Assembly (NCBI GenBank): GCA_002104985.1
Contig: MCGO01000172.1
Span: 16,694-80,693 of the forward strand
Direction of reading: 5' to 3'
Origin: Rhizoclosmatium globosum
Lineage: Eukaryota > Chytridiomycota > Chytridiomycetes > Chytridiales > Chytriomycetaceae
Length of the DNA: 64,000 nt
Numbering within the stretch: the stretch's first letter is position 1; each line of letters begins with the position of its first letter. Under the pieces are notes generated by a model, which searched no databases, was not told the DNA's origin, and saw only the letters and a program-made list of their open reading frames with translations. The translations under genes and the position numbers were made by a program. Below, one piece after another: positions 14,722 through 25,868 of the stretch.

Positions 14722-15029
14722 TTGACTTTGGCTGTTTCAGATCAAAGAAAAAGATTGAAAGGACAAAGGAATAACATGAGTTCGATAAATTAAATATCAT
14801 ATTTCTCCAACCAAGGGCTTGGATTTGTGTTGGCTCATGTTTCCTGAAAACAAAGAACCAGTTGCAGCCAGGGTTTCCACAGTAACTGCATCCATTAAAA
14901 TAATTTTGAATCAAAATTTATGTATGTGATTACTTGATTCGTTTCCTTGGAGTTGACTTTGGAGTCCCGACCCAAAGATTGTCATCAAAAAACTTGAGCT
15001 ACAGCCAGGGCCATCTTCCTATCAAACTT
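14722..15029. other. 308-bp spacer, divergent MYND gene / split PAN-LRR gene
   Basis: No convincing exon. A short minus-strand open frame with CSYCGNPGC reaches into the MYND start but has no family support. The stretch should contain the promoters of both flanking genes. Confidence 0.35.
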
Positions 15030-16017
15030 ATGAAGTTAATTACAATCCTTCTCTGCGCTGTATCCACTCAAGCAGTGGTGCTGTTTCTGACAATCAGTCT
15101 CCTTCATTATTCTGGGGGTGCATCTGACATTTTCACTTCGACTGGCTACACATTGGAGGATTGCCAAAACTATTGCCTTACCGCACAATCAAATAATCCT
15201 CCTTGTGTAGGTGTTAGCTTCTATACGCCTAGTGGTGCCGCAATCGGGACATGCTATGTCAAAAGTCAAGGAGGTGTCGACAGTGGATCGTCTGTCGCGT
15301 TTGAAAACCACTGGAAGTTTTCCTTCTACAAATATCAAGTCACAACACTTTATGGCTTAAGTTTCAATAGCTATACGCTTTCTTCTGTGACCGGAAATAC
15401 CAAAGAAGATTGTGTTGCGAGTTGTTTGCAGGATTCAAATTGTAAAGCTGTTCTTTTCTCAGACGCCAATGGCTGTGTCGGGAAATCAATGATTAATCCC
15501 AACATAATTGCAAACGGCTATCTTATCAATGTTGGGCGTCCATTGACGACAACGACATCCACGACAACAAGTACAAAGACTTCGACCACGTCGTCAAGTA
15601 CTTCGACTGCAACAACTTCCACAACATCTAACTTCAGCACTCCTATTACATCAACCACTTCGTCGAGCACTTCAACTTCAATCACAACTGCAACATCCAG
15701 TACTACGTCATCAACCACTTCATCGACTCCCAACTGCAACTTCAAGTTTCAGAACAATTTATTCCAGTATTTCAGCAGAATTGACAGTTACCACCGCTGA
15801 TACTGCCATTCCATTTTCATCTGCAACTTCATCAAGTTTCGCAGTGACAATTACAGAAACACTGAAATTACCCTCCACCTCAACACCATTGGTTGCGATT
15901 AAAATATCGACGGAAACAGCAAGCTCCTTCACCTCAATCCACTCTATAACTAGAAGTGCGACTTTAATTACGACAGAAGCTACAACCATATCTTCGTTAA
16001 CATCATTATTATCTGCG
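15030..16017 (+). pseudogene. 5' half of a secreted PAN-like/mucin/LRR gene, cut by the transposon
   Basis: Starts with a hydrophobic leader (MKLITILLCAVSTQAVVLFL). Two cysteine-rich PAN/Apple-like units follow: TLEDCQNYCLTAQSNNPPC, and KEDCVASCLQDSNCKAVLF. Then comes a Ser/Thr-rich mucin-like stretch. The frame slips by one base at CCC 15729-15731; after removal of one base the Thr/Ser-rich frame stays open to 16017, where the inverted repeat of the transposon begins. The paralogues at 30636-32831 and 33109-35193 continue from this kind of linker into a conserved C-x-x-L-K-x-x-F-P-S-V segment and leucine-rich repeats. Those missing parts lie on the same strand at 24189-25667. Confidence 0.7.
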
Positions 16018-16035
16018 GCGGATTGCTGTTTTATT
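16018..16035 (+). repeat. Left terminal inverted repeat (18 bp)
   Basis: GCGGATTGCTGTTTTATT, perfect inverted match to 24171-24188. Just inside, CAGCAAT at about 16051-16057 is the complement of ATTGCTG within the repeat, so the left end can also form a local hairpin. Confidence 0.75.
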
Positions 16036-16412
16036 TTCTTTTGGACCAACACAGCAATTTTTCTTCTTCACAGAGACACAAAATTGTAGTGTTGGTGGAA
16101 AATTGTGTTGACACACACACTCCCACCTCCAGTACATAGAGACCATAAAAACCTTGATGGCAGATTTCCCCTTTTGCCAATGAGATTTCTATATAAATTT
16201 GAACATATATCAACACAGTATAGCAGTTTATCAGCTTTGATTCAGTTCTGATGTCAGTTTGTTAACAGTGTGGATATGGTACCAAGAAGCATCCAGAGAG
16301 TGTTGCACATTATCTTTCTCTCTCTTTCTCTCTCTCTCTTTCCTCATATTTATAAAGTAACAGATCCTGAGTTTGCTTTTTTTATTGTTTTCAAACTGAG
16401 TTGTGATCGTGA

Positions 16413-19289
16413 ATGGCTGCTCCAGTTCCACCAGGCTGGGGTAAATGCCGCAGATGTCCTGGAATGTTCCATGAAGCATTATTGAGCAAGGCAGACCTTT
16501 GTCCGCAATGTGCTTCAAATGAAGTTGTGAGCAATAGTTTGGCGCCATCCAACATGCCTGGACCAGCTGAATCTTCAGGAACCAGGTCTTTAGCTTGAGA
16601 GAGATATTTCTAAAAATACTGATTACAATATACCAGAAGTACAGCCCGTGCGACGGCTGTCAACGATTTTAGAGGGGCGATGATTGACTTACTCCGTTCA
16701 CAGTCGTCAACTGTTGGCGGATCACAAACAACCCCAACAGCAGCAAGAAATGAAGCTGTGTCTAAATTTGGCCCATACACTCCAAAGACCAATTTTATAT
16801 CTGGAGCATCAAGGGTGGTGAAACGGTCAAGTAAATCTTCAGACGCCACCTCGTCCATGGCTAAGAAGGCAAAGAACGGATCAGTACCAGTTCCAAAGAT
16901 CCTTCCAACGTACACTTTTACTGCGACATACTTGTTTGGTTTTCGAGCTTCCGATGGACCCAACGAAAAAGACAGAATTGATGTCTATCCTCAGCCAGAC
17001 GAGGCAGTGTAATCTATCTTTAAAATTACACATCAATCACTAAATTTTCTTCAGGAAGAAGAGATTGCGATTGTTGCATTGCCTGAACCGACCATTTGTT
17101 ATACAGCAAGGCGAACTTCTTCAAGAATTAAAGACCTTTGCGTTCGAAACTTTCCGAACAGCATCAAGACTTACCTATGAGTTGGCAAAGCAGAACATGA
17201 AAACTGCAGTTCAGCAGGGCGACATTGAAGCCAAAAGTTTCTCAGAACTGAAAATGGAGACTGCATTATCTGAAAGCCGATCCTCCGATTATGAGCTTGC
17301 TTTTGTGATACTTTCCCATTCACCAGGTCCTTCAAAATCATCTCACGTTCAGTTTAATGTGACTCTCTCAGCAGAGCAAATAATGCAACAGCACCAGCAG
17401 TTGCTGGATCAAAGGGGTGAACTTGGCTCTAAAAAGCCTATGGATGCCTTCCTTAAAACCAAGAAAAACATTGGTACTAATAGAAGCACTTTCTATGTGA
17501 CTGCATATTGCCGAAACAACCCGCCTCTTGGTAAGTTGAAAAGTAGGTTGTATTCATTGTCTTAAATTTAAGTAGGTGACAATCATGCTTTTGATGGGCA
17601 GGAAATTGAGTGGGATGTGCCTGAAGATGAGGATTTGGAATCATTGGACATTGAATTTATCAAAACAGGATATCATTCCTTTACTTCTGTTGCAATGAGC
17701 CCAAACGTTGGCCTTGTTTACCAGCCTCCAGCAACAGCAAGAGCTCCATCAATGAAACCAATTGCCACAATTGTCTCTGATGACAGCGATGATGAGTTTG
17801 CAGGTGTGGCGTCCTTCAATAATTTTGTGTTGGTTCTAATTTCATGAAAGCTAACATGGAGTGGGCAATGACGGAGTCAATGAAATTATCCGGGTCTGTT
17901 TTACTGAGCGACTCAACTGTTACACTTGATGACGATGATGACAATGTTACGCGTACTGATGGACAGCTACCAGAAATCCACATTTCTCATCAAGCATACT
18001 TAGACGAGAGTTTCGTGATTGACGACGCGCTTCAAGTTTGCGAAACTATTCGAGTTGGCGAAGGGAAGAGATTGAATGGAAACTTTGATCCAACTGTGAA
18101 ACGAGAGTTGAAAGGGGCCGGTCGCGGCCTCACAAGTGATGAAGTTGTATCTTTGGTGCATGACTTGTCTGAGGACAACGATCCTGTGAAGCGAAGCCAG
18201 TTCTTTGTTACTCCCATACTTCAAACAAACGATCAAAACAAAGCAATTGATTGTTACAGTCATGTTGTGGCAAAAGAGATGCAAGACTTTCATGAAACCA
18301 AGTTTGCACTACCGCGGCTATGGACGCAGACTGCAAAGCGTCATACTACAGAGAAATTCAAAACAGAGTATTTCTCTAAAATGGAACAAATGAGTTTGAT
18401 TGTACAAGGATCGGTCAGTAAATGTTTCACCTCTCGTCTAAAGTTAATCGGCCATTTACTGTAGTTACTTGCTTATGCTTTGGTGCATGAAAAAGAGTGC
18501 AGCATGTTTCCAAACATCAGTGAAGCTGTTTTGTTGAGTTTGTGTGGAGCACCAGACACTTTGTTCACCAAAACTATGGTTTATGAAATGGGGTTTCAAA
18601 ATGCCTTTCGACGCAGCGAAACAGAAGAATTAATTATGGACTACCATTCTGAAGTTATCGAGCTAATTGATAGATACAATGAATTAGCTGGAAAGGAAGG
18701 TTTTCCAATATTCAAACTCCCCTGCGAGTACGAGGATGTTGCGAATCTAACCACACCCAAAGTATTTGAAACGTTTGTTATTCTCAGCGAATGCAAGTGG
18801 AGGAGGTTACTGGGTCTTTCTTACATCAAGACTGGGTTTATTCAATGGTTTCCTCGGCATGAGGTCCTTTTGCCTCTCCTTCCATTTATTCCTAACTTTT
18901 TTAAGACTGTTCACTCCTTTGAGGATTTTCGCAAACAGTTTAAGGAACCAAATGGGACTGATTCGGAGGAGTTGCGAATTACGTTTGCAGCTTATATGCG
19001 CCTGGCAAAGACATGGAAACCAGTCTTTTGGACTCACGTTCTTCGATTTGTCAGTGGACAGATGCATATTCCAGTTAAAACAAAAATATCTTTGAATATC
19101 GTCTTAAATGGAGGTTCTGGTGTGTACGAGGCTCGTACTTGTTTTGCTAAACTTGATTTGAGTCCTTGGAAGACGGAATGGAATGATGTTGAACAAAAAA
19201 CGGATGAGATTATGTTCTGGGAGGCACTAGTGACTCCTTCAGATGATGAGGCGGCACGTAACAAGGAACTTTCTTTTAGTTCAGTTTAA
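16413..19289 (+). CDS. Transposon-borne protein with zinc ribbon and HECT-like C-lobe
   Basis: HECT domains form a thioester with ubiquitin on a C-lobe cysteine. Five to six exons: an N-terminal zinc-ribbon-like pair (KCRRCPG, then DLCPQC); a Ser/Thr and nuclear-signal-like region; a middle part ending EIEWDVPEDEDLESLDIEF; an acidic stretch; RGLTSDEVVSLVHDLSED; then the C-terminal domain: IKTGFIQWFPRHEVLLPLLP, HVLRFVSGQMHIPV and EARTCFAKLDLSPW. The last matches the HECT catalytic consensus (A-x-T-C-F-x-x-L/I-x-L/I-P-x-Y) with the active Cys, and RFVSGQ matches QFVTGS. Introns are visible at about 16588, 17011, 17531, 17802 and 18415. Around 17040-17120 the frame after the acceptor is uncertain. 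Confidence 0.65.
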
Positions 19290-19341
19290 CGAGGGTTTTT
19301 TGGAGAGGAGAGAAAAGGGATCACTTGTTTATGAATATAGT

Positions 19342-21170
19342 TCATTCATCCTCACTATCTTCATTGAAATTGACATCCATAACACCACCATTTTCGTTAA
19401 TCCAAGCTTGTACCGCAGCTTTCGCGTCAAGAAAGATTATGCGTCCATCCTCACCGTCATCCTTCAAAACTTCGTGTTCGGACCAGGTTGTCTTAAATTG
19501 AACCAACTGGTTCTCAGTCAATGGACATTGTACTTTTCCAACTCTTGCTCTCCTACTTCTCTCATACGGCATAAACGTAGCTGCGTCCGCTTCACTAATT
19601 TCGCCAACGCCATCATGCTCTTGACGATACCTCCCTCTTGGATCTGTTCCATAAAGTCTTATATCCTCTTGTTGCAAAGCATCACCAGGATCTCCTTGAT
19701 TGTTTTCCTGGATGTGAAAGTCTGAAAGTTGGCTTCGTCTTTGAATCAAGCCAATTAAGAACACCTGGCTTGGAGTTTTATACTTGTGCATTCGTTTTTT
19801 GTGGTTATTATGTGCTCCAACAAACTCATTCAAAATCTGTTGGATCCTTGGCTTGAAGACTTGGTGAAGAACCCAGAGCTCCCAGCCATTAATAACATTA
19901 AGCTCTTGCGCTTGCTCCATTGTCTGAAACAATTCCTTAAAACTGGTAATGACCTTGTTTCCAAGATCTAGGTTGAATCGTTCAATGCGCTGGTTGTGTA
20001 CAGATCGTCCGGCAATTACAGAACCTCTATTCAGACCTTGAACTCGAATCATCTCCTCAGCCACAAGTATGTTCTCTCCTCCTAAAATTACGTTCTCATT
20101 AAATAGAAAACAGGAAAACAGCTCTTACCTTTGTCACAGCGGAGGCGGGATGGGTACCCATACAAAGCAACACCTCTGCTGAACGCTTCATACATTGTCT
20201 CAGCCCTGTTATTTGTTGAAACAACGCAAAAAACACACAGATGGGAGTAGCCGTCAATTCCTATAAAAAGTTAGCCTTCACAGAATCAAAGTCCAAGCTT
20301 ACCAACGTGTATCACAAACTTGTATCTTACAAGTTTGTGATTGCCATCAATATGTTGTAACGAATGGGGTCCTGCAACAGTATACTTTCGCCTAACGATG
20401 GCCTTTATCAATCTGTTGAAGACACCTATGGGATCTGCATCTTTCACTGCTTTTCGAACGCGCTCCCTTGTCACGCGTATTCCCTCCTCAGAAAGCAAGT
20501 GGGCCTGAACAAAGTCGGCCCCACTGCGGCGATGTCGATTGATTATTCTATGCACCGCACGCAATAGGTTGGGTTCAGTCACGTCGCTCCATACAAAGGG
20601 ATCCCTAAACGTCCCTGCTAACGTGGCTTCTTTAACTTGCTTAGCAATTGTTCCACGATCAAGACCGGCTAATTCTGAAATAGTGACCCACTTTACACCA
20701 AACTGCCGTAATGCTTCAACTTGTTTCAAATCCACTATTTCGGCAGGTCTTCCTGGAAGACCAGTTTCAAGTTTAGATACTCTGAGTTTTCCGCTGTACA
20801 TGTTTCTTATTGTTTCGTCTACCCGGGATAATAGAGATTGCAATTTTGATTCGGCTAGGTTTAGAGCCCCTGTCAGTTCTAGTACAAGAACATCACCAAG
20901 AAGTTCTTGTTTAGAAAGTATAAAATGGCATAGAGGCGTCAAATAGAGGATTGCTTGGTGGAGGGCGTCACGATCCATAGACTGGCGTTCCATAACCCGA
21001 TATGATCGTCGCAAGATTGTCACTGCATATTCTGTGATGGATTCTATGAGATATATATCTCCTGTACAGTAGTCTCCGTCGTCTTCGTTGGCTTCGTCGT
21101 CATTGTCTGCAACAGCGTCAAGTTCCGCTTCATCATGAAGTTCTTCCAAGTGTGTCAAGTGCGCCTCCAT
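19342..21170 (-). CDS. DDE integrase-type transposase
   Basis: About 550 residues in three exons. The N-terminal part carries a helix-turn-helix-like segment: GLPGRPAEIVDLKQVEALRQ, then WVTISELAGLDRGTIAKQVK. The catalytic core follows with HSLQHIDGNHKLVRYKFVIH (first Asp), GIDGYSHLCVFCVVSTNNRA, PSRLRCDKGGEN across the second intron (second Asp) and GRSVHNQRIERFNLDL (Glu). The order HIDGNHK / D-K-G-G-E-N / HNQRIER is the retroviral-integrase-like fold used by a class of eukaryotic DNA transposons. The acidic C-terminus ends in repeated Glu/Asp. ATG 21170 is the first in-frame start; the frame is unbroken, so the protein may be functional. Confidence 0.85.
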
Positions 21171-21774
21171 ATTCCTTGTCAAGAAAAAAAAAAGAAAAAG
21201 AAAGCATTCTGTTATACTTTGAGAATGTCATTTATTTCATTTATTTCATTTGTTTGTCAGATTTGACAGTTGGCGGGATGCACCAAATCCTGACAACACT
21301 CTTTTGCCTTCTCAAAAACCTCTCCCAAAAACAGCAGCGTTCAATACACTCGCGTCCGTTCAAGGGGCACTCTCTTTGACGTCATGCGGGCTGGCCCCCT
21401 GCAGTTAGCACGTCATTGTAGCAGTGAATCCGTCACCCCTTAGCCCCTTGCCAAAAAGAGTGATTGAGCCATGCAGCTCTATTTCATCAGCTTTTTCTTT
21501 CATCTGCTTTTGCGTCAAACAATTGGGTAAGTGAAAACTATAATGCGACGCGTCCTGACTCCATTTATCACTACGCAGACCTGCTGTTCCTGTGATATCT
21601 TGACATAATTCTCCATACTGTTTGTGTTGGCTCATTGTTCTGCATTTTTTGTGTTTTGAATATCTATTTAAGTTGCGGGATAGTTGAATATAGCTGTATG
21701 AATAAAAGGAAGGAGGAAGTGGAGGGGAGGAGGAGTTTCCAATTCAAAGCAGCTAAGCAAAAAGCACCATCCCA
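21171..21774. other. 604-bp divergent control region inside the transposon
   Basis: Lies between the transposase start and the third gene start. It contains a short palindrome, GTCAGATTTGAC, near 21256, and one minus-strand open frame (about 21405-21635, 76 codons, Cys-poor, no family). I regard it as promoter sequence for both genes. Confidence 0.4.
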
Positions 21775-23342
21775 ATGGCAGCGCCAATCAACTGCGACGA
21801 ACGCCGTCGTCTCGCTCGTATCGCGGCACGACTAGTCCTCAATATCCCCGCACAGCAAATTCAAGCGCGATTCGCGATTCTCCAACATTACGACCCAGCA
21901 TTCCTACATAATTTGTTCTCCGACGCCTCATGGCCTACATCTCCGTCTACATCTCTTGGGACTATGTCTCTTAGCGACCCCCTTTCCGTTGATTTGGCAC
22001 TTTCGCTCCCGCCTCCAGTTGTTGGTCAAATTGAGGCTCGTATATCAAAGCTGAGAGCTGATCTTGAGGAAAAGGTGCTGGATATGCACCAGCCAAAAGG
22101 ACGCGGAAAGTATAAAAAACGTGTAGGAGAGACGCAGGACGCGTTTAAAAGGCGCAAGCGAGAGAGTGTTGAGGTTAGTTATAACAGTCTAATCACCCTC
22201 TTACCATTCAACAGACATCTCAAATCGAAAATTATATCGTCAAGGTTACATTGGCACTTTTGGATCCTAATCAGCACGCATTCATTGATTTGGGTAAAAC
22301 AACCCAAGACGCAGCTGATAAATTCTTGAAAGGCCCAAACAAAAAGCCAATGGTCTTGATATTTTTGAACCAGAGTCTTGTTGCCACTCACCTTTCTGGG
22401 AATCTGTCGTTCCCGCAGCCGCTTCGAGATAAATACTCAGACGCGCTCAACAGTATTATTAAACTACATAACCCTTTGCCTCAAGCGAATACTCGATCCC
22501 ATGCAAACAAATATCCTGATAGAGTCACTCGCTCAGGAGTCATTGATAACAGCCTTGGTTTCATGAATGGTCATCATATGAATACTCTTACTAATCTTAA
22601 GATACGTGAGGAGCGACGTAAAACATCTGATAAAATGACTGGCAGTTTGAGCTATTTGTATCGTACTGCATCGGCTGCAAAAGTTGTTGAGAGATTAAAC
22701 TCTGTGTTATTCAAGGAGAGTGTTGACAGAATGAACCGAGTAAATGAATTGGTTGAGGAACACAACAATGGGAGCTTAAAGCTTTTGGAGGCAAATGGTG
22801 GATTTCTGATAAGGTCTGTTGCTTTGGTGCTTTGAGTTTGGTAGTGAATTCAACTCTTGTTTCTCGTAGATATCTGGCTGTCAACGTCTTTAATGAAGAG
22901 CATCACGATCAACATGATTGTCGCAAGATTCCATCTACTCTTTTGTATTCAGGAGATATCAGCAAGAATTCCAATTACCTTTGTTTCACGGATTACGACA
23001 TTCGTCTTCCCATTGCTGCATGGACTATCATCCAAATGATGGCATGGAGTCTCAATCATGAGGTTGGAATTGTTGACACCTTCACCGACAAGTTCAACAA
23101 CAGACGTGTTGAAGTTTTTGGTTCATACGATTCACTTTACCGCAACTTCAACAAACGAGAGGAGCAAAAGGTGTGTATATTCAAACCTTTGTACTTTTTT
23201 ATAACTCGAGTTCTAGTCTGCTAAATACAGCGCGCCTGAAATAAACACCCCCGTTGCGTCTGGCATTTCTAAACGTAAGTCAACTGTGGACAAAGTAAAC
23301 GAATTCCATGCTGTAGCAAAGAAAACGAAGGGGGAAAAGTAA
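21775..23342 (+). CDS. Third transposon gene, unknown function
   Basis: Four exons give about 470 residues. Exon 1 starts MAAPINCDERRRLARIAARL and ends in a basic stretch, KGRGKYKKRVGETQ and KRRKRESVE, which looks like a nuclear signal or DNA-binding arm. After an intron (GTTAGT..CAACAG) come VTLALLDPNQHAFIDLGKTT, KPMVLIFLNQSLVATHLSGN and RKTSDKMTGSLSYLYRTASA. Exon 3 has CFTDYDIRLPIAAWTIIQMM and FGSYDSLYRNF. The last exon is basic and ends KKTKGEK before an AATAAA-type signal (about 23353). No domain is recognised. Its position between the terminal repeats makes it part of the element; DNA binding or help in transposition is a guess. Confidence 0.7.
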
Positions 23343-24170
23343 TATTGAGATTGAATAAATCATCTTTATTGTCAACGTTGTTCTTCCAAATTCAAGCAAT
23401 CAGTGTGTCAGTGTGCAAAGTACCTCAATAGAGAGACGTACTTGTTTCCAAGGAGTCTCAACAACCTCACTAATTCCTCGCAAAATCCAAACTAAATCGT
23501 GAATTGTTTAAACGCTGCGTTGACGGATTTCGGGTTGGAAAAGTAGGTCGATCGATCGGGCAACAACAGATTGCACCCTTCTGGTTCCTCCACAAACTGG
23601 TTTGTTCCTGTCAAATGTCAGCAACTTGCAACTGCGATGATTCGGTTTGTATGAACGCGTTTCGTGTGAAGACTGTGATGCCGCTTGAACGAATTGCGAT
23701 GTTGGCTGCTGATAGCATATCGAGTGCTTACTTCTTGAAAGCGATTCTTAAGATCCACTATCGTGACCTCCTGATTGTTAAGAAGTCAGACGAAGAGGCT
23801 ACTGTGGAATGAGATTACAGCCCCTCAAATCGTACCCATATTTGGCCCCATTTCTCGTCAATCATGATTGCCATCTGTGTGATATGGTTAGTTCTCGATA
23901 CTACATCAGCAAATGCAACCTTACCTGCAGTCGTGTTGTCCCGACGGCCGACAAAGAGCGAGATCGTTGTGAAGTCAACGATATCTCACTCGAACAGATG
24001 ATACGTACAAGTTGCTGGACAAGAGCTCTGTGTAATCATATGGATACTCTTGGTGTCTGCAGTTATGATGTGTCTGTTGTCATTTTTCCACCTATCACTG
24101 CGGGAAAATTAGGTGTCAATGCGGGAAAAACACTCTGTTTGATGAAATTTCCTTTCTCCCTTCTTCTTTT
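23343..24170. other. Right non-coding arm of the transposon
   Basis: 828 bp between the third gene and the right terminal repeat. A plus-strand open frame at about 23504-23812 (102 codons, with CNCDDSVCMNAF) and one continuing past 23809 have no recognisable family and no start or splice context I trust. The outer part holds the subterminal repeats. Confidence 0.4.
24096..24133 (+). repeat. Subterminal direct repeats TGCGGGAAAA
   Basis: TGCGGGAAAA occurs at 24099-24108 and again at 24120-24129, 21 bp apart, within 75 bp of the right end. Short repeats of this kind near transposon ends commonly bind the transposase. Confidence 0.45.
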
Positions 24171-24188
24171 AATAAAACAGCAATCCGC
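24171..24188 (-). repeat. Right terminal inverted repeat (18 bp)
   Basis: AATAAAACAGCAATCCGC, exact complement of the left end. By chance the outer part also resembles a 3' splice site (pyrimidine tract then AAACAG), which could let a transcript of the 3' host half be spliced from within the element. Confidence 0.75.
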
Positions 24189-25667
24189 GAGCCATACATT
24201 ATATACCACGACAGCACAGTTGTTCACAAATTCAGGAGGCCCCACTTTTCGCACTTCCTTTTGCACACCTTCGAGCAGCAGTTCGTCCGTTTTTCCATAT
24301 ACAAGCATTTCTTGCTCTTCATTGAGTCGAACCGAACAAACTGCTTCCTCAAAAGGAACCAGTGGATCCTTTTGTACTGAAGTCGCAACTACATCAACGG
24401 TCAGCTCAACCGCAACTCCTCCATATTTATCCAATACCTCAGGCTCCACTTCTACTTCAACACCAACATCGACATTAATCTCAACGTCAACTTCGTCCAT
24501 AAAACAAGACGAAATCAATGTTACAAAAAATACAGTGGAACCCACAGCTATAACTACTAAAGTGAAGCAACCGAATTTAATTCAAGAATGCAACATCCTT
24601 GTCAAGACTTTCCCATCTGTTGCATATCCATTTGACTGTCTTACTATTGAACCAAACGGAAGATACACAATCACCGGCCTCAAGAACCAACGTCGCAACG
24701 AAAAGCGAGATGAGTTGAGATGATTCATTTGTACAAACGGCCGTTAACGTGGCATCACCATAATTTTCACAGCATCAATGAAAAATACGTCCTCTTTTCA
24801 GAATATTGCGTGAGCTATATCGTATTGCCAAGAATCGGTTTGTCACAGACAATCCCATCTTCGATTTCAGCATTCGGAATGCTTCAAGTCTTGTAAGTGA
24901 TACGATAAGAGATGATACAACTTACGCTGTTTCCAGAGATCTTTCTGGAAATCAAATCGTGGGAAATATTCCGACTGTGTTTGGGTTATTGACGAGTTTG
25001 CAAACTATGTACCTGTCCATTACAAATGCATTGAAGCTCATATATTGTTTGAACAGAAATCTAGCTCAAAATGAGGTAACAGGGTCAATACCTGCAGAGC
25101 TTGGAAGAATGATTGGATTGACCACCATGTAATACCTTGAGCTATATTCAATATTTAATTAAAGATTTTTAAGGGACCTATCAGGAAATCAGTTATCGGG
25201 AGGAATCCCAGCTCAACTCTCTCAATTGTCAAATATGCGCTCTATGTAAGTTTTCGCATTGGGATGAAGAGCATTTCGTAACCATGATAAGGTCGTTGAT
25301 GGGAAACCAACTCACGGGCGCCATTCCAGATACGTTGCTCCTTAATATCGCAGCTAAAGGAATCGTTGTCAACTTTGGAACAAACTGCCTCGCAGGAACT
25401 TCCAACCAGCGCATCGGATGTAGCAGAAAAATCCCAAATTGTCGTGCTATCTCTCTGGACAGTGGATATTTAGATTCACGTTGGACATTCATGTGGAGTG
25501 CACTTGCAGCTGTGGAGAACGATTTGAATGCCTTTGATAAGGCTGTCAGCTCGTTGGGTGCTGAACACTTTGGAGTGCGTGAATATGAGTTCCAGGCTTT
25601 CAAATACTATGTTCAACGGCGCGCTTGGTGTATAGCTAAACATCCAGAATATGTTTATTTGGGCTAA
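24189..25667 (+). pseudogene. 3' half of the split PAN-like/mucin/LRR gene
   Basis: Begins directly after the right transposon repeat in a Ser/Thr-rich frame, then reads ECNILVKTFPSVAYPFDCL and EPNGRYTITGLK, matching the CVNLKATFPSVDYQFDC and PNGKYVVLGLK segment of the two paralogues. Leucine-rich repeats follow, one per short exon: LSGNQIVGNIPTVFGLL, LAQNEVTGSIPAELGRM, LSGNQLSGGIPAQLSQL, LMGNQLTGAIPDTLLLN. The conserved C-terminal domain includes CRAISLDSGYLDSRW, LNAFDKAVSSLG, HFGVREYEFQAFKYY and QRRAWC. All LRR exons keep frame, so decay since the split has been slight. The exon joining the Ser/Thr region to the first LRR (24720-24800) is not resolved. Confidence 0.7.
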
Positions 25668-25868
25668 TTATAAATGGAATGAAATCATTTTATCAATATG
25701 TGTCTGAGTCACTAAATCAACACAATAAGAGCATGGATATCGCATGATCGCGCAATACTTACAAAGAAAAGAGTATTACTAAACTTGTGGACGAACAAAT
25801 TCGTGAGCCACAATCTAACAAGTTTCGGGTGATCTCGCGGCGAGAAGGACGACAAAACTTTCCATCAA

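Follow-up and report, generated by a model that had tools for sequence, protein, structure and literature searches.

We report here a DNA transposon of 8,187 bp in the genome of the chytrid Rhizoclosmatium globosum (GenBank assembly GCA_002104985.1). The element occupies positions 16010..24196 of a stretch of 64,000 nucleotides of contig MCGO01000172.1 (positions 16,694 to 80,693 of the forward strand; "the window" hereafter, to whose numbering coordinates refer), and it contains three genes, coding for a transposase, a HECT-like protein and a TET/JBP-like protein. Weighing all results together, we consider it probable that this is a recently active and apparently autonomous transposon of the IS3EU type, in which the HECT-like and TET/JBP-like products are accessory proteins whose most likely role is to counteract silencing.

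Boundaries, copies and transposase of the element

The initial annotation of the window described an intact DNA transposon of about 8.2 kb, with a perfect inverted repeat of 18 bp at its ends. The size and integrity of the element were borne out, and the repeat does exist (16018..16035 on the plus strand and 24171..24188 on the minus strand); in the window, it is the only exact inverted pair of 18-mers spaced 3-15 kb apart. The repeat is not terminal, however. A second full copy on contig C379 is identical to the window copy over exactly the same span (8,187 of 8,187 bases, without mismatches) and has the same end bases, placing the true ends 8 bp outside the repeat on either side; the element is therefore 16 bp longer in total than initially described. 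Outward from the 18-bp repeat, the left end reads TATCTGCG; on the right, the sequence is GAGCCATA. At 16010 the element begins with TATCTGCGGCGG, and it finishes at 24196 with CGAGCCATA; its termini can be given as TATCTGCGG...CGAGCCATA, or alternatively as TATCTGCGG...GAGCCATA.

The window copy lies between two perfectly matching 6-bp target-site duplications (TSDs), CATTAT, at 16004..16009 and 24197..24202, whereas the C379 copy is flanked on both sides by GGAATG. When 11 kb around the former were compared with 10 kb around the latter, the element was the sole alignment. When the flanks of the window copy were joined and used as a genome query, a related empty site was identified on contig C90 (L066); it is 86% identical and uninterrupted, with CATTAT present once and the element absent. 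With the C379 flanks, joined in the same way, no empty site was found: on three contigs (C368, C145 and C282) both flanks are matched at 96-99%, but joined positions 275-511, junction included, are missing, and therefore the C379 copy sits in a stretch that is absent from them. A third copy, on contig C375, is decayed and still has its left terminus. The DNA search thus gives at least two full copies and one decayed copy, these counts being lower bounds.

The two identical copies with different TSDs, together with the empty site, show that the three genes move as one unit, as had been proposed. Both full copies share their ends and all three genes, and we saw no copy that ended elsewhere and excluded the HECT-like or the third gene. 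The same data (two copies that agree over exactly 8,187 bp, their unlike TSDs and the empty site) refute the trivial explanation that three ordinary genes are clustered by chance between incidental inverted repeats, to which we attach practically no probability. We regard the element as a real, recently active DNA transposon of R. globosum, and an apparently autonomous one; the chytrid host that had been presumed is also supported.

Three further observations concern the surroundings of the copies. The window copy is located within a host gene that has a region rich in Ser and Thr (14910-15800 and 24203-25800), and one reading frame stays open across the junction once the element and one TSD are removed. 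The pieces of the decayed copy (C375, 159.1-172.5 kb; L053 and L054) are oppositely oriented and separated by about 10 kb, one covering element positions up to 5434 and the other positions from 5522, as would result from an inversion that broke up a single element. Finally, in genome searches with protein families, many of the loci came as pairs that had the same or nearly the same score on different contigs (C146/C66, C68/C79, C301/C101, C110/C334), as might be expected if two haplotypes, or duplicated regions, had been assembled separately.

The transposase gene (19342..21170, minus strand; exons 21170-20303, 20260-20129 and 20081-19342, stop codon included) codes for 579 amino acids. Its gene model is confirmed by an annotated protein of Rhizoclosmatium sp. 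JEL0117 (P0001), with which it shares 577 of 579 residues. The protein matches Pfam family PF24764 (E-value 2e-63) and, at E 5e-7 and 29 bits, the NCBIfam IS3 model, whose cut-off is 160. The DDE set is unbroken, in agreement with the initial annotation, and consists of D275, D332 and E367, the last two separated by 34 residues (DD34E). Together with the PF24764 match, these residues correspond to an IS3-like DDD/E core, and the integrase-type transposase that had been recognized can be refined to the IS3EU type. According to the available text of PMC10045372, the hallmarks of IS3EU elements are TA..TA termini and, usually, 6-bp TSDs. The termini found here read TATCTG...GCCATA, and the duplications measure 6 bp in both full copies. 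From three sequence features, the PF24764 DD34E transposase, the TA..TA ends and the 6-bp duplications, we assign the element to the IS3EU type.

A protein search with the transposase scored 7,996 candidates, 331 of them at E 0.001 or better; among the 120 of these that were listed, the named ones come from fungi and animals. The R. globosum genome has eight PF24764 loci. The transposase profile had no match in viral contigs, and in bacterial and archaeal genomes it matched three loci, all on short contigs of one bin of Cycloclasticus, a sponge symbiont (L059, L060 and L061). These eukaryote-like transposases of the IS3EU type are probably sponge DNA. By eye, no HECT-like open reading frame (ORF) was seen on the three contigs, which are too short to weigh against the pairing described below; one of them (L060) also has an ORF that, by eye, resembles a retroelement polyprotein.

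The two accessory genes

In accordance with the initial annotation, all three genes are composed of several exons (six, three and four). The HECT-like gene (16413..19289, plus strand; exons 16413-16585, 16637-17008, 17055-17530, 17576-17803, 17851-18413 and 18465-19289) codes for 878 amino acids and lies tail to tail with the transposase gene, with 52 bp between the gene ends. The annotated protein P0121 is identical to our model at 496 of 498 residues over residues 381-878, while residues 1-380 represent a gene model of the present analysis. The Pfam HECT family (PF00632) gave sub-threshold matches, at E 0.013 with the whole protein and at E 0.0029 with the last exon. A profile built from two sequences, the window protein and its relative on contig C371, was compared to PDB, and all six matches at E 10 or better were C-lobes of HECT E3 ubiquitin ligases (E 0.08-2.1); both of the alignments displayed pass through the catalytic Cys. 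Comparison with the host HECT genes using hhalign gave 84% and an E-value of 7e-6, against 0.37 and 0.62 in two control comparisons. Near the C-terminus, the context expected of the catalytic Cys is found at the candidate residue Cys830 (ARTCFAKLDL), whose codon lies at 19140-19142 in the last exon; the C371 relative reads GCCFGDLTLP at the aligned place. The HECT-like nature suggested in the initial annotation is therefore plausible from the profile matches to C-lobes, but the protein is divergent and falls below the Pfam cut-off, and we call it HECT-like rather than HECT.

Searches of the host genome with the window HECT-like protein returned nothing beyond the two full copies and C375, and those with the C371 ORF nothing beyond that ORF itself; no HECT-like homologue turned up in viral contigs. 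A ubiquitin-interacting motif noticed by eye was dropped as a candidate, as its core pattern is present at four places in the protein and a stricter pattern was unmatched. Fish and invertebrates have many multiplied HECT proteins annotated as G2/M-phase-specific E3-like, which may reside on transposons, and the pairing with a transposase could extend beyond fungi.

A related locus of the IS3EU type on contig C371 (L048) provides insight into the age of this pairing. Its transposase is 40-54% identical to that of the window element, depending on the segment, and is matched only from residue 208. A 513-aa ORF lies tail to tail with it, 93 bp separating the ORF ends, and is homologous to the window HECT-like protein (BLASTP E 5e-4; Smith-Waterman z 8.4, with none of 500 shuffles scoring as high). 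Since the same tail-to-tail pair is found at a second, much diverged locus, the partnership between transposase and HECT-like protein is probably old. ORFs of hAT type (Dimer_Tnp_hAT, DUF659) occupy positions 6129-8285 of L048, where the 5' part of the transposase gene was expected, and a hAT element has probably inserted there. Another transposase of the IS3EU type, on contig C39 (L052, 4992-8982), has a 622-aa ORF tail to tail at 117 bp, for which we found no Pfam match and a single PDB match, at E 0.87. It was rejected as a HECT relative, 34 of 500 shuffles scoring as high. No TET-like gene was detectable at C371, and neither accessory gene at C39. The transposase relatives at C371 and C39 belong to families other than that of the window element. 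A search for TSDs and terminal inverted repeats (TIRs) around the C371, C39, C405, C413, C359 and C394 loci revealed no convincing ends.

The third gene (21775..23342, plus strand; exons 21775-22173, 22215-22813, 22870-23170 and 23217-23342) codes for 474 amino acids. The initial annotation left its product without identity; to us, it looks to be of TET/JBP type. The R. globosum protein P0122 matches this gene, of which exons 1 and 4 are gene models from the present analysis, and relatives are present in the same genome on C405, C413 and C359, in addition to decayed pieces on C375. TET/JBP proteins are defined by an iron-binding HxD/E...H triad (PMC12730594, available text). The third protein has such a triad, with an HxD motif at His344-His345-Asp346 (22901..22909, plus strand) and the distal His396 (codon 23057-23059). 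H344, D346, H396 and R411 are invariant in all four aligned sequences (the window protein and those of C405, C413 and C359), a layout typical of Fe(II)/2-oxoglutarate dioxygenases. In TET/JBP enzymes, a 2-oxoglutarate-binding Arg follows the distal His, and R411 would by analogy have this role.

The top PDB match of a profile of the four members was the Tet-like dioxygenase NgTet1 of Naegleria (5cg8/4lt5; E 0.0026 and 0.0091), as it was with a profile of the core only (E 0.0017 and 0.0019). The alignment spans the region from HxD to the distal His; of the four matches listed per search, the remaining two are unrelated, at E 0.34 or higher. HMMER also listed a shared upstream stretch, SGILDNSMPF in NgTet1 and SGVIDNSLGF in the window protein, which is not significant by itself and from which C359 departs (SGILNFS). 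In the core exon (96 codons), pairwise comparison of window, C405 and C413 (three pairs, C359 left out) gave a nonsynonymous divergence (dN) of 0.28-0.32 and a synonymous divergence (dS) of 2.8 or saturated, which indicates that this exon is under purifying selection. In our reading, the third protein is a divergent, TET/JBP-like Fe(II)/2-oxoglutarate dioxygenase.

On C405 (L049, 4604-9116), the TET-like gene is about 1 kb from an ORF for a Plavaka transposase (PF18759, E 5.5e-25). No common ends were found for the two, and the observation is one of proximity only. Residues 33-314 of the C405 TET-like protein are identical to a partial protein of R. hyalinum (P0123; 282 of 282 residues). The near or complete identity of P0001, P0121 and P0123, proteins of Rhizoclosmatium strains, to those of the window element or, for P0123, of C405, may reflect a recent horizontal transfer between strains or a low divergence of the hosts.

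Proposed role of the accessory genes and its alternatives

With a TET/JBP-like third protein, the likely story shifts from ubiquitin control alone to the erasure of DNA marks, accompanied by a possible ubiquitin ligase. The DD34E transposase would cut the element out and paste it elsewhere. The TET-like enzyme would oxidize methylated bases, either 5-methylcytosine (5mC) or N6-methyladenine (6mA), on or near the element, keeping its genes expressed. The HECT-like protein may ubiquitinate silencing or repair factors of the host, or the transposase itself, setting the level of transposition; the element might in this way manipulate host ubiquitin signalling, as suggested in the initial annotation. 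The host genome has matches to cytosine methylases and to MT-A70, as well as six to Tet_JBP (three reaching the cut-off, neighbours in frame), which makes methyl marks plausible targets. The MT-A70 family also includes RNA methylases. In early-diverging fungi, 6mA is the dominant mark, and the fungal enzyme CcTet acts on both 5mC and 6mA (PMC13297926, available text). For transposon-borne TETs, oxidation of methylated bases and an anti-silencing role have been proposed (PMC12730594, available text).

Several results weigh against this reading of the element and its accessory proteins. With regard to the second protein, its scores of 15.6-17.7 bits miss the PF00632 cut-off of 23.9 bits, P0121 alone had no match in the PDB search, the C371 ORF alone had none in Pfam or PDB, the HECT N-lobe was not recognizable by profile searches, and the AlphaFold model of P0121, made from a single sequence, was uninterpretable (predicted local distance difference test score, pLDDT, 34.7). 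The second protein could instead be something other than a working HECT E3: a protein specific to the transposon, perhaps serving as a DNA-binding or target-site partner, which has kept only a C-lobe-like fold. Apart from the sub-threshold Pfam matches, this would agree with the lack of a homologue outside the genus (the one match among 7,994 scored candidates is the JEL0117 copy) and with the C39 ORF, whose dissimilarity means that the slot beside the transposase is not always HECT-like. We nevertheless find it quite unlikely, given that every PDB match of the two-sequence profile was a HECT C-lobe, with both displayed alignments crossing the catalytic Cys, and that the hhalign match to the host HECTs was specific.

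With regard to the third protein, none of the four TET-like members has a Pfam match up to E 10, Tet_JBP (PF12851) included, hhalign found no link to two host Tet_JBP proteins (E 0.45), and the AlphaFold model of P0122 with P0123 was likewise uninterpretable (pLDDT 32.8). Profile searches with the three proteins, which the initial annotation had put forward as a check, thus gave a family for the transposase, a sub-threshold one for the HECT-like protein and none in Pfam for the third. The gene might then code for a 2-oxoglutarate dioxygenase of another kind, or for a TET-like enzyme that hypermodifies bases, instead of a demethylase that helps the element. Counting without gaps from HxD, Ser355 stands at the place of CcTet Asp337, a residue essential on 5mC and not on 6mA (PMC12730594, available text), and the available text of the same paper considers hypermodification as another option for transposon TETs that are divergent. 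On the other hand, no PDB match other than the two NgTet1 entries has E < 0.3, and we hold this alternative to be rather unlikely.

The distribution of the accessory genes also counts against the favoured reading. The HECT-like gene is known at three of the eight PF24764 loci (the two identical copies and C371); a tblastn search at E 0.01 of 10-kb stretches of C39, C394, C157 and C135, with the eighth locus (C410) outside the search, found no HECT-like match, and near the C371 pair there was no TET-like match. Accessory genes can, moreover, be passengers. A further possibility is that the HECT-like protein mainly tunes the transposon, ubiquitinating the transposase or competing as an inactive E3, so that copy number is limited and no anti-silencing role exists. 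The low number of copies and the tail-to-tail position at two diverged loci speak for it, yet low copy number has many causes, and we think such self-tuning improbable as the main function.

An anti-silencing role remains the explanation that we favour for the accessory genes. A bolder form of it, advanced tentatively and considered doubtful, is that of a self-defending transposon of an early-diverging fungus with a two-part anti-silencing kit, consisting of a TET-like eraser, possibly of 6mA, and a ubiquitin ligase that removes silencing or repair proteins of the host, where at least the eraser gene would be swapped among transposon superfamilies as a module. The two identical full copies make this a practical element for testing whether a transposon escapes silencing through its own base-oxidizing enzyme and ubiquitin ligase.

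Comparison with known systems

Among the papers listed by the literature searches, which did not extend to Iyer et al. (2014; TET/JBP genes and transposons in fungi), we recognized none that links IS3EU elements to HECT or describes a TET gene in a chytrid transposon. The term HECT is absent from PMC10045372, PMC12730594 and PMC10853768 and from the available portion of PMC12062965, and the word chytrid is absent from PMC12730594. The HECT-like partner would add to the accessory genes of IS3EU elements, for which we did not find it reported in that literature. Transposon-encoded TET/JBP enzymes are listed as yet to be functionally characterized (PMC13297926, available text).

By eye, the window HECT-like protein shares with the C-lobes of known HECT E3 ligases (pub2, HUWE1, WWP2) the pattern around W, G and P and the catalytic TCF..LdL, but it differs from them in falling below the family cut-off and in an N-lobe that searches did not recognize. 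Similarly, the TET-like protein shares the HxD...H arrangement with NgTet1 and the fungal CcTet, with an E-value to NgTet1 of only about 0.002.

As for the whole element, it has in common with the IS3EU superfamily (Repbase; PMC10045372, available text) the TA..TA termini, the 6-bp TSD and the IS3-like DDD/E transposase, and differs by carrying a HECT-like gene. Styx of Zymoseptoria, as described in the available text of PMC10853768, is likewise of the IS3EU type, with about 8 kb, several accessory genes and recent transposition; its other genes have GATA, CCHC and DUF3577 domains, whereas the window element carries HECT-like and TET-like genes.

A further parallel is offered by the TET-bearing IS3EU elements of Pucciniales and Tuber indicum (this and the following from the available text of PMC12730594), in which a TET/JBP gene likewise accompanies the transposase, together with another gene that is oriented opposite to it. 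In those elements the partner gene codes for an alpha-kinase and TET sits between the two genes; here, a HECT-like gene takes the partner's place and the TET-like gene is found past the transposase gene. In the rust families, the TIRs exceed 30 bp and end in TAYGG..CCRTA; in the window element, the right end (TATGG) fits this pattern, the left end (TATCT) does not, and the perfect TIR measures 18 bp. Transposon-borne TETs have been reported in Pucciniomycetes, Agaricomycetes and Pezizomycetes (rusts, mushrooms, and morels and truffles), and our reading, if true, would extend them from these three lineages of Dikarya to a chytrid. The host of the window element, a chytrid, belongs to none of these three lineages, and the TET-like sequence of the element is divergent.

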